A DNA stretch of 64,000 nt from an uncultured Coriobacteriaceae bacterium (GTDB lineage Bacteria; Actinomycetota; Coriobacteriia; Coriobacteriales; Atopobiaceae): positions 1 through 64,000 of the forward strand of contig CADAQM010000010.1 of the NCBI GenBank assembly GCA_902790135.1, in the 5' to 3' direction. Below the pieces are notes generated by a model. That model was not told the DNA's origin. It ran no database searches and saw only the letters and a list, made by a program, of their open reading frames with translations. The position numbers and the translations under genes are program-made. Positions 24,894 to 59,694 of the stretch are shown here, piece after piece (positions within the stretch are counted from its first letter, which is position 1; each line of letters starts with the position of its first letter).

Positions 24894-24991
24894 GAACTGC
24901 TCACAATTGACTTGGTTGTGAGCAGTTCGGAATTCTCGTCCTGCGAATATGCTATTAATCTACTCACATTTAGGTTACTTGTGAGCAGTTC
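24894..24991. repeat. Left pair of 35-bp palindromes of the DUF559 cassette
   Basis: Element 1 (24894-24928) has a perfect 13-bp stem (GAACTGCTCACAA and TTGTGAGCAGTTC) around a 9-base loop, TTGACTTGG. Element 2 (24957-24991) keeps the right arm exactly but has a degenerate left arm (9 of 13 matches), also with a 9-base loop. The starts are 63 bases apart. A TCCTGCG block sits at the centre of the 28-base linker. Element 2 ends 24 bases before the gene start, so promoter or operator roles are possible. Confidence 0.9.
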
Positions 24992-25015
24992 GCTGCAAGA
25001 GTAGAGAAGCCGACC

Positions 25016-26125
25016 ATGTACGCCTTCATTTCGCATACCTCCGCCCTCGATGTGCTGCGGACAATCGAGAACGGAGGACAAGGACTTCCTCTTTGGCCCA
25101 GCGAGGCGCGCGAGCTTCCCCGACACTACAACTGCGTAACGACCCAACGCATGTACAAGGAGTTCGCCGCTCAGCATGACCTTGCCAAGTACGGCATCAC
25201 GAGAACTCCCATTGACCTGCTGGTGCCCAAGGCCAGCCAGCGGAGCAAAGGGGCAAAGGCACGTTTCCATGCCTGGAAGGGCAACGTTCCAGTCAACTCC
25301 ATGCTTAGGCTTGAGGAGTTCCTCTTCGTGAGCAAACCCGAGTTCGTTCTTCTTCAGATGGCCGGATGGCACAGCAAGACAGATCCGATTATCAACGACT
25401 TTGCACGAGAACTCGAAGCTGCTCGTGAGATTAGTCCCGCAGCCAACCTAGATGAGCCCGTTCCATACGATAATCCTTTTGCTTGGGACAACACGAGACG
25501 GCTCGTAAGTTTGGTACTTGTCGCAATGGAACTGATGGGCACCTATCGCCTAACGGCTCCGGGTAGGGCAACTCGATACGGACAACAACAACTGCTCACC
25601 TTTGCAAGCATGGAGCAGTTCATGCAGCGCGCCGGGCGCACATATGGGAAGAACCGTCTCGACACCGCCCTTAGCCTTGCCCTCCCGCACTCGGCATCGC
25701 CCATGGAAACCGCCCTCTACCTCTTGCTCTGCCTGCCAGACCGATATGGCGGATATGGTTTACCACGTCCAAAGTTGAATCGAGAACTATCCGTCAAGGA
25801 GCATGAGCGTCTCTGGGATGGCGGCGCATCGATAACTCCCGACCTGCTCTGGGCAGATGCCAAGCTCGTCATCGAGTACGACAGCAACGAGATGCATGGT
25901 AGCCTTGGTCCAATCAAGCTCGCGCAGGATGCCACGCGTGCGAACGTCCTCTCTGCTCTCGGGTATACCGTACTCCGCGTGACCACCCGTAACATTCAGT
26001 CGCCAGCCGAAGTCGAGAGAATCGCCTGGCAGGTAGCCTCAAAGCTTGGCGTGGAACTGGCTGAGCCGAGCGATGCACTTCGCATCCGCAGGGGCAAACT
26101 GCATGCGCTGCTCATGCGTCAGTAA
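25016..26125 (+). CDS. DUF559-like (PD-(D/E)XK fold) protein with AbiEi-type N-terminal region
   Basis: A 369-residue protein of a kind I associate with Coriobacteriia. Residues 30-75 look like the winged-helix/linker part of AbiEi-type proteins (YGITRTPIDLLVPKASQR). The middle has FVSKPEFVLLQMAGW and a conserved SPMETALYLLLCLPDRYGGYGLP. The C-terminus is a Vsr/DUF559 nuclease-like fold: DLLWADAKLVIEYDSNEMHG, then DATRANVLSALGYTVLRVTTRNI. The catalytic E-x-x is partly kept (VIEYDS). GC is visibly lower than in its neighbours. No partner gene lies beside it; paired palindromes flank it. Function is unknown; defence, toxin-antitoxin or mobile-element roles are possible. The start has only a weak ribosome binding site (AGAGAAG). 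Confidence 0.65.
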   Translation: MYAFISHTSALDVLRTIENGGQGLPLWPSEARELPRHYNCVTTQRMYKEFAAQHDLAKYGITRTPIDLLVPKASQRSKGAKARFHAWKGNVPVNSMLRLEEFLFVSKPEFVLLQMAGWHSKTDPIINDFARELEAAREISPAANLDEPVPYDNPFAWDNTRRLVSLVLVAMELMGTYRLTAPGRATRYGQQQLLTFASMEQFMQRAGRTYGKNRLDTALSLALPHSASPMETALYLLLCLPDRYGGYGLPRPKLNRELSVKEHERLWDGGASITPDLLWADAKLVIEYDSNEMHGSLGPIKLAQDATRANVLSALGYTVLRVTTRNIQSPAEVERIAWQVASKLGVELAEPSDALRIRRGKLHALLMRQ

Positions 26126-26129
26126 AGGA

Positions 26130-26227
26130 GAACTGCTCACAACTTGCTTTATTGTGAGCAGTTCTGCGAGTTGTTCCTGCGCTTTTCCCGCGAAACTGCT
26201 CACAACCAGGTCAATTGTGAGCAGTTC
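26130..26227. repeat. Right pair of 35-bp palindromes of the DUF559 cassette
   Basis: Element 3 (26130-26164) has the perfect 13-bp stem GAACTGCTCACAA/TTGTGAGCAGTTC with 9-base loop CTTGCTTTA. Element 4 (26193-26227) has 12 of 13 pairs and loop CCAGGTCAA. The starts are 63 bases apart, exactly as on the left, and the 28-base linker again has TCCTGCG at the same offset. Element 3 begins 5 bases after the gene stop. Confidence 0.9.
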
Positions 26228-57912: not shown

Positions 57913-58701
57913 TCACAGGAGGCCGAAGTGCGCGAAGGCGTTGAGCAGACCGTCGTCGTGGATGTCGGTCGTAACCCAAGTGGCGGCAGCCTTGGCGTTG
58001 TCATTCCCGTTACCCATGGCCACTGATACATCCGCAGCACGCAGCATCGTGAGGTCGTTGTCGGAATCCCCGCAAGCCATCGTGCACCACTCATCGGCGC
58101 CGAGGTAGGCACGTACGGCCTCCATCGCTGTTGCCTTGTTCACGCTCGCAGCAGTTGCCTCGGCAAAGCCGGGCCCGAGGTAGGTGAGCACCACGTCCTC
58201 GGGCATCGCCGCGACCACCTGCTCATACACGGGGCCAGCGCCATGATAGAAGGTCTTGTGAATGCGTCCCCACTGCTCGTCGGGCATATCCTGCAAGCGC
58301 GGCGCATGGAAGATGGGATCGGGCGTACCCCCAACCATGTCGAGCAGCCTCTCGAACGCAGCCTGATCGTTGATGCAAAGCCAGCTGTTCTCACCCGACT
58401 CGAGGCTGTAATTGAGCTCAAAGGAGTCAAACACGCCCGCCACCGCACGGAGACGACCCTCTCCCAGCGGCTCATCCACGATAGTCTTGCCATCGAGAAT
58501 CACCTCGGCTCCCGCTGCGAAGCAGAACCCGTCGAGCCCCAGATAGGTGAGGTCAGGCACCTCAGAGCGGGCGCGTCCGGTATTAGTCAACACCTTGTGG
58601 CCGTTGGCCCGCGCGCGCCGGATGGCCTCGCGTGCAGAGTCGGGCACCACGCCCCACTCCCACAAGGTTCCGTCGAGATCCAGAAACACAGCGGTCTTCA
58701 T
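57913..58701 (-). CDS. HAD-superfamily (Cof-type) hydrolase
   Basis: A 262-residue phosphatase: nucleophile Asp in AVFLDLDGTLWEWG, motif II VLTNTGRARSEV, and motif III/IV ACGDSDNDLTMLRAADVSVAMGNG. Cof-type enzymes dephosphorylate sugar phosphates or flavin and vitamin cofactors. ATG 58701 has GGGAGA seven bases upstream; the ATG at 58707 overlaps that site and is less likely. Confidence 0.85.
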   Translation of the reverse strand: MKTAVFLDLDGTLWEWGVVPDSAREAIRRARANGHKVLTNTGRARSEVPDLTYLGLDGFCFAAGAEVILDGKTIVDEPLGEGRLRAVAGVFDSFELNYSLESGENSWLCINDQAAFERLLDMVGGTPDPIFHAPRLQDMPDEQWGRIHKTFYHGAGPVYEQVVAAMPEDVVLTYLGPGFAEATAASVNKATAMEAVRAYLGADEWCTMACGDSDNDLTMLRAADVSVAMGNGNDNAKAAATWVTTDIHDDGLLNAFAHFGLL

Positions 58702-58764
58702 CGGCATATCTCCCTTATCCCTCCCCTGCCGTCCACGGACAGAACGTCCGTGCGCACGACCGAC

Positions 58765-58836
58765 GGGAAACAGGGGACAGGCACCTGTTCCCCTTCTCCC
58801 ATAGTAAGGGAAACAGGGGACAGGCACCTGTTTCCC
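58765..58836. repeat. Two REP palindromes upstream of the RAYT transposase
   Basis: Copy 1 (58765-58793) and copy 2 (58808-58836) both read GGGAAACAGGGGACAGGCAC, then CTGTTCCCC or CTGTTTCCC. GGGAAACAGG pairs with CCTGTTTCCC, so each is a stem with a GGACAGGCA-type loop. They stand head to tail, 43 bases apart, about 100-165 bases before the transposase start. Confidence 0.9.
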
Positions 58837-58929
58837 ACGTGTTCCCGCTCCCCTGCACCCATATGTTTCATGGTCACACCATTTGGGCATAAGGTAACAA
58901 CCCACATCCGAATCCACGAGAGGAGAACC

Positions 58930-59694
58930 ATGCCAAGAGCAGCGCGTAAAGAGAGCAGTACTTCCCTCTACCACGTGATTAACCGTGGATCGGGAAAACA
59001 AATCATCTTTGAAAACGACCTAGACAGGCGATTCTTCATGAGCAGGTTAGATAGCCTGCTGGTCGAGCACGAAGGCTCCCTTCTGGCATGGTGCTTGATG
59101 GACAACCACTTCCATCTGCTGCTCGACATCTCTTTTTCTGATCTCGCACACCTCATGCACGGACTTCAGACAAACCATGCGGGATACTTCAACAGGGTCC
59201 ACGGGCATAGTGGGTCGCTCTTTGGAACACGCTACAAATCCGAGGCAGTTGAGACCGACGAGTACCTCATGACCCTCGTGAGATATATCCATGAGAATCC
59301 CTTTAAAGCGGGGGCAGCCAAAGATCTTCACTACCGTTGGAGCAGCTTCGATGAGTACGTGAGCAGGCCTGTTCATATTGATCCGTCACTGGTACTGAGC
59401 GTCTTCGGCAGCAAGAATCAATTCTTGCTCTTCCACAATGCCAGCCACGACGACGACCAATGCATGGACGTTGATGAGCATACTATTGCTCATCTGTCTG
59501 ACGAGCAGGCCCTCCGGATTGCGGAAGACGTCTTCGGTCGGGACGCTGTTTTGAACATGAAAGGTCTTAATCGCGCGGCAAGGGACGAGGCACTCGTCAC
59601 GCTGCGGAAAATGGGGCTTGGTGTGAGGCAGATCCAGCGGCTGACAGGCATTTCGCTTAAGGTCATATCGCGTGCAGGAAAGGCCGCTGCTTGA
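58930..59694 (+). CDS. REP-associated tyrosine transposase (RAYT, Y1/IS200-like)
   Basis: A 254-residue protein with the Y1_Tnp domain: STSLYHVINRGSGKQIIFEN, the HUH metal site in MDNHFHLLLDI, HLMHGLQTNHAGYFNRVHG with the likely catalytic Tyr, GSLFGTRYKSEAV and YIHENPFKAG. The C-terminal 80 residues hold a helix-turn-helix-like tail (LGVRQIQRLTGISLKVISR). RAYTs cut single-stranded REP hairpins. The gene sits between REP palindromes in opposite orientation. GAGAGGAGAACC precedes the ATG; there is no terminal repeat of a complete insertion sequence. Confidence 0.88.
   Translation: MPRAARKESSTSLYHVINRGSGKQIIFENDLDRRFFMSRLDSLLVEHEGSLLAWCLMDNHFHLLLDISFSDLAHLMHGLQTNHAGYFNRVHGHSGSLFGTRYKSEAVETDEYLMTLVRYIHENPFKAGAAKDLHYRWSSFDEYVSRPVHIDPSLVLSVFGSKNQFLLFHNASHDDDQCMDVDEHTIAHLSDEQALRIAEDVFGRDAVLNMKGLNRAARDEALVTLRKMGLGVRQIQRLTGISLKVISRAGKAAA

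Follow-up and report, generated by a model that had tools for sequence, protein, structure and literature searches.

A DUF559-like gene of an Atopobiaceae genome lies between two direct copies of a palindromic repeat unit that also occurs as dispersed solo copies

We report a gene for a nuclease-like protein of 369 amino acids that is enclosed by two directly repeated copies of one 98-bp palindromic unit, in a 64,000-nucleotide stretch of an uncultured Coriobacteriaceae genome (contig CADAQM010000010.1), hereafter the window. Repeats of this general kind, specific to the gene that they flank, accompany most full-length homologs, and further copies of the unit stand alone elsewhere in the genomes. 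On balance, and judging from sequence comparisons, we favor the reading that the 98-bp unit would be a miniature, nonautonomous extragenic repeat and the protein its dedicated trans-acting enzyme, in an arrangement resembling that of REPIN/RAYT systems.

Results

Repeat units and gene in the window

A sequence-only reading of the window had described four copies of one palindrome around the gene, at 24894, 24957, 26130, and 26193. These positions are confirmed, as are the start-to-start distance of 63 bp, identical in the upstream and downstream pairs, and a TCCTGCG motif at equal offset in the two 28-bp linkers. The features are as follows.

24894..24991, + strand: upstream 98-bp unit (palindrome, 28-bp linker, palindrome); match to covariance model R1 with E 2.4e-16, the model having been built partly from this unit
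24894..24928, strand not applicable: palindrome 1, with 13-bp arms and a 9-base loop
24939..24945, + strand: TCCTGCG, start of the linker core of the upstream unit
24953..24958, + strand: TATTAA of the upstream unit, which might serve as a -10 box; weak and without a consensus -35
24957..24991, strand not applicable: palindrome 2, with a degenerate left arm (AATCTACTCACAT, 4 mismatches)
25016..26125, + strand: gene for the 369-aa protein with a C-terminal DUF559/PD-(D/E)XK-like domain, the candidate cognate protein of the units
25706-25708, + strand: codon for E231, a putative active-site residue invariant in 35 homologs
25841..25930, + strand: codons for D276, E287, H294, and D305, the putative active site, invariant in 35 homologs
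26130..26227, + strand: downstream 98-bp unit, a direct repeat of the upstream unit; R1 match with E 1.3e-17
26130..26164, strand not applicable: palindrome 3
26175..26181, + strand: TCCTGCG of the downstream linker, with offset and orientation as upstream
26193..26227, strand not applicable: palindrome 4, left arm with one mismatch

The described pattern of 13-bp arms and a 9-base loop holds with 0 or 1 mismatch for three of the four palindromes but not for palindrome 2, and it had no match in 100 shuffles of the window. The layout, which had been called mirrored, is instead that of two direct repeats of one unit, each unit being an imperfect inverted repeat in itself. Elements 1 and 4 are indeed nearly reverse-complementary in the window (34 bp, 97%), as had been noticed for their loops; this likeness is not kept in most relatives, and terminal inverted repeats are not a general feature of the whole cassette. 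The lower GC content of the cassette (55% versus 61% for the window) is likewise borne out. A search of Rfam returned nothing, and a promoter scan returned nothing above chance.

The nuclease-like protein

The 369-residue reading frame (25016-26125) agrees with its earlier description as a PD-(D/E)XK-like or DUF559-like gene, by a marginal match of the C-terminal part only to DUF559 (PF04480; 21.9 bits, just over the cut-off of 20.6). In a profile search, 21 of 35 homologs matched DUF559 at E ≤ 0.1, and the DUF559/MTES_1575 profiles were the only ones to match these homologs in number. The N-terminal half had no match in Pfam, NCBIfam, or PADLOC. A search of solved-structure profiles gave one weak hit, to the endonuclease-like protein 3hrl (E 0.77), and an AlphaFold2 prediction from three sequences reached a pLDDT of 33. 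Purifying selection acts on the gene (dN/dS 0.12-0.17). EDxHD homing endonucleases have characteristic E, D, H, and D active-site residues; at the corresponding positions in the sequences of the 35 homologs, E287, H294, and D305 are invariant and D289 varies.

A protein that looks like a nuclease might belong to a defense or toxin-type system, one of the options of the sequence-only reading; it would then be restriction-like or abortive, with repeats that are regulatory or protective. We consider this highly improbable: searches of Pfam, NCBIfam, and PADLOC yielded no evidence of a toxin or defense-type gene, with no PADLOC or NCBIfam match at all, an AbiEi domain is found in 0 of the 35 homologs, and the neighbors of the window gene encode an aldo-keto reductase (AKR) and a GH1 glycosidase.

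Flanking repeats across the homolog family

Homologs were collected from 140 genomes of the same family as the window genome, one genome per species, many of them incomplete metagenome assemblies; E-values are rough. Of the 57 full-length homologs, which are 33-92% identical, 54 have upstream and downstream flanks that match each other, in that they have a common segment scoring above a null cut-off. The counts given here include related loci and do not represent independent events. By comparison, when the upstream flank of one paralog was paired with the downstream flank of another within a genome, 2 of 32 pairs matched, and for other genes of these regions the flanks matched in 6 of 138 cases. 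The repeats thus belong to the gene that they flank. They are mostly interrupted inverted repeats on both sides of full-length homologs, and inverted repeats exceeded the shuffle cut-off upstream in 61 and downstream in 59 of 73 loci. The arm sequences are private to each gene, and those of paralogs in one genome differ. Homologs from other families that match the C-terminal half only have sites in some cases (for example, L209) and none in many; we therefore limit the claim to the full-length clade.

Two further DUF559-like paralogs of the window genome have their own repeats. One (L005; G000:C12, 45649-49185) is followed by a 33-bp perfect inverted repeat with a 98-base loop, and a related arm lies on its upstream side; the other (L008; G000:C24, 25092-28601) is enclosed by ~185-bp direct repeats that are rich in GGTGCACC.

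Private arms also bear on the idea that the unit is mobilized by another enzyme, for example a Y1 (HUH) transposase, and that the DUF559 gene was captured between two copies. Matches to Y1_Tnp in 10 of the 11 genomes tested, including one in the window at 58963-59298, are compatible with this idea. Capture does not, however, predict arms private to each DUF559 paralog; moreover, genome G134 has the gene and its sites and no Y1 match, and the Y1 gene of the window has its own, different palindrome. We judge capture to be very unlikely.

Dispersed solo copies

Based on the covariance model, the window genome has three copies of the unit: the two flanking ones and a solo copy at C16:20437-20534, which an exact palindrome search had missed. 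In addition to its flanking pair, genome G127 has ~13 solo copies, and a 107-bp form is present in ~8 solo copies in each of the genomes G069 and G070. Matches to a 72-bp class were found at E ≤ 0.001 in 54 of the 140 genomes, several of which have many copies. Solo copies are mostly intergenic. Non-allelic copies within one genome are up to 91% identical, versus 25-38% for their flanks, which is chance level; they share the whole linker at unrelated places, and conservation drops at the outer palindrome edge. Some copy pairs of higher identity also share their flanks and look like segmental duplicates.

R1 sites were found in 10 of 10 genomes that have a homolog of ≥45% identity and in 10 of the 130 others, an association that is partly by construction because five of the ten genomes supplied the model. 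R1-type sites also occur in some genomes that lack a close nuclease gene, in assemblies that may be incomplete. The sequence-only reading had named two observations on which the idea of a cassette would founder, homologs without flanking copies and a palindrome that is widespread without the gene; the homologs do have flanking copies, and the palindrome was not found to be widespread in the absence of the gene. Its comparison to a REP/BIME unit that has its own nuclease finds good support, given that flanking pairs are general and gene-private and that dispersed solo copies occur in addition.

Two side observations concern solo repeats. In the assemblies of two species, a solo site and its flanks are nearly identical (L174, G139:C291:2409, and L175, G132:C3:153023), reflecting either an orthologous old insertion or cross-contamination of bins. 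The right flank of the site in L180 (query 1151-1276) in G069 and G070 contains a further palindromic repeat family with CGAGTGCGTGATT arms and dozens of matches in both genomes; in their arms, these repeats are reminiscent of other DUF559 paralogs (L075-L079).

Spacing and core of the units

In the window subfamily, the upstream and downstream distances between palindrome centers are 63/63 bp at four loci, 62/64 bp at one, 72/72 bp at two near-identical loci, and 83/83 bp at one; for any given gene, the two values differ by 2 bp at most. Units of other subfamilies measure ~62-150 bp, mostly 72-80 or 92-105 bp, and have simple arms. A core resembling CTGSGGTTTTG is present near the center of 46 of 106 sites, across many arm classes, compared to 2.3 in shuffles. 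When its two defining classes are omitted it is present in 28 of 77 sites, compared to 2; duplicate records of window-class loci still contribute four of these 77. In one clade the core is weak or absent.

Spacings of 63, 72, and 83 bp nearly match 6, 7, and 8 helical turns and suggest that two protein dimers may sit on one face of the DNA. Such phasing would also fit looping or repression by a tetramer, and the palindrome pair just upstream of the gene, the possible -10 in its linker, and the location of most solo copies between genes are also what one would expect of an autoregulated DNA-binding protein with a small regulon. In that case the nuclease-like domain would now only bind DNA, the palindrome pairs would be operators, with the promoter of the gene under the upstream pair, and the solo copies would regulate other genes. 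We regard this as unlikely, because loci as a rule have a matching pair beyond the stop codon as well, the whole linker is common to copies at unrelated places, the putative active-site residues are invariant, the promoter scan was empty, and the copy number ranges from 3 to ~15 between close species.

Locus history

In the genus of the window, the genes around the cassette are those for the AKR, a HAD-like protein, an EcsC-like protein, and GH1; the names HAD-like, EcsC-like, reductase, and Fic-like are taken from reading of the sequences, not from a family search. The order is AKR, site, gene, site, GH1 in the window genome (G000) and in G139. In G134, site, gene, and site are flanked by the EcsC-like gene and GH1; in G127, they lie at this left boundary as well. 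The cassette follows the HAD-like gene region in G132, where the downstream genes differ. In five species of the genus, then, the cassette has stayed close to one AKR locus. In G137, 74 bp separate the EcsC-like gene from GH1, with neither nuclease gene nor site. In G130, a single site follows what is left of the nuclease gene, its final codons (SLRIRRGKLHALLMAQ-stop); we rejected an excision scar as its origin and consider it a deletion relic with the nuclease C terminus. By this comparison, inheritance of the gene is mainly in place, with occasional losses.

In another subfamily, one reductase gene has the cassette on one side in G124 and on the other in G129, and an orthologous junction has a solo site in one genome and site, gene, and site in the other, which indicates that some movement or loss of cassettes also happens. 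At G124 L099:6115-6993, a Fic-like gene lies beside a solo site, and G129 has the nuclease cassette there. The presence of units varies at orthologous places. Neither a target-site duplication nor a clean empty site was established at G137/G134 or G069/G070, where the intergenic DNA is too diverged.

The small mobile unit proposed in the sequence-only reading therefore applies in part: the 98-bp site is the dispersed part, whereas the gene cassette mostly stays at one locus, being lost in some species and found in two places around one gene in the other subfamily. Mobility of the whole cassette, in a homing- or integrase-like manner that would leave solo sites mainly as scars of departed or decayed cassettes, would account for the G124/G129 differences, for the 74-bp flanks of L055 that are 100% identical, and for the site and C-terminal stub of G130 as a decayed cassette. 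The constant AKR locus in five species argues against it, as do the ~13 solo copies in G127 versus one full-length close homolog and the excess of sites over such genes in many genomes; we find it rather improbable. A search of phages and viral contigs found no homolog. A circular Collinsella record of 1785 bp (L107; NZ_OY725722.1) encodes a distant DUF559-like protein; we rejected this 1.8-kb plasmid as an excised circle, as it has no such palindromic site.

Discussion

The REPIN/RAYT systems, or REPtrons (PMC3116915, PMC8049555, PMC3733652), are similar to the present system in that two short palindromic sequences form one unit of ~70-110 bp; units of the window family measure 98, 107, 118, and 72 bp, and published REPIN spacings are 71 and 110 bp (PMC3116915). 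In both systems the units are dispersed, multi-copy, and extragenic, and the gene lies between cognate repeats, here with 54 of 57 matching flanks compared to 2 of 32 cross pairs. RAYTs are described as inherited in place (PMC8049555), and the same applies at the AKR/EcsC/GH1 locus, with the exception in another subfamily. By contrast, the protein is DUF559/PD-(D/E)XK-like and not an HUH tyrosine (Y1) transposase, and the GTAG foot is absent, the window arms being GAACTGCTCACAA; the system is therefore not a member of REPIN/RAYT. It also differs in that both units are complete and in direct orientation and have an asymmetric core in common, that each of many paralogs has private arms, and that copy numbers are low. 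Functionally, REPIN/RAYT would be its closest counterpart, built here on an unrelated nuclease. Separately, the window contains at 58700-59694 a Y1 (HUH) transposase-like gene with an imperfect palindrome (GGGAAACAGGGGACAGGCACCTGTTCCCCTT) upstream that looks like a true RAYT-type locus.

In TIRtrons with their TIRYTs (PMC3733652), a single gene similarly lies between long repeats, which have further family members elsewhere in the genome. Those genes are tyrosine transposases, however; here, each of the two directly oriented flanking repeats has the structure of an inverted repeat. EDxHD/Vsr-like homing endonucleases (family named in PMC6083498) may resemble the protein in nuclease class and in the spacing of E, D, H, and D residues. 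Homing genes interrupt their target, though, and here whole sites are present on both sides of the gene and elsewhere, so that it is not an interrupted-target homing gene. AbiEi-type autoregulators of type IV toxin-antitoxin systems bind inverted repeats at their own promoter. Inverted repeats lie upstream of the gene here as well, but the homologs have no AbiEi domain, no toxin gene adjoins the window gene, and a matching downstream site and dispersed copies are present.

Returning to the dedicated enzyme of a miniature repeat, we infer binding, cutting, and movement from the sequence comparisons. The N-terminal and middle parts of the protein would bind the palindromes as dimers, and two dimers on palindromes ~6, 7, or 8 helical turns apart could assemble into a tetramer along one DNA face. 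Between the palindromes, at the asymmetric core, the C-terminal PD-(D/E)XK domain would then nick or cut, and repair of the cut would copy the unit elsewhere or remove it. The upstream unit may in addition have an operator role and limit expression of the gene. Several points stand against the proposal: a simple site-specific nuclease should cut the intact flanking sites, the window genome has three copies only, the core is weak or missing in one clade, the DUF559 match is marginal, neither a target-site duplication nor a clean empty site was established, and R1-type sites occur in some genomes that lack a close nuclease gene. Cutting might take place only in a special form of the DNA, such as a cruciform or the single-stranded template at a replication fork, in which case the chromosome would be spared; RAYT acts on single-stranded REP DNA (PMC3733652).

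More tentatively, and with some doubt, we suggest a separate class of mobile repeats, in which Atopobiaceae-like bacteria would have a large family of PD-(D/E)XK nucleases, specific to their lineage, with private, evolving palindromic addresses and a shared cut-site core, and these nucleases would spread and maintain miniature elements without an HUH or DDE transposase. A search of open-access papers for DUF559 together with palindromes, inverted repeats, or mobile elements returned nothing relevant. If the proposal is correct, repeats of the REPIN type have had two or more origins, involving enzymes that are unrelated, and nucleases of the PD-(D/E)XK class are able to drive or maintain palindromic elements that are dispersed. 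The family provides dozens of natural pairs of a protein and its private DNA address, a readout of how nuclease specificity changes. The proposal would also give a role to many unexplained DUF559 genes of Coriobacteriia.
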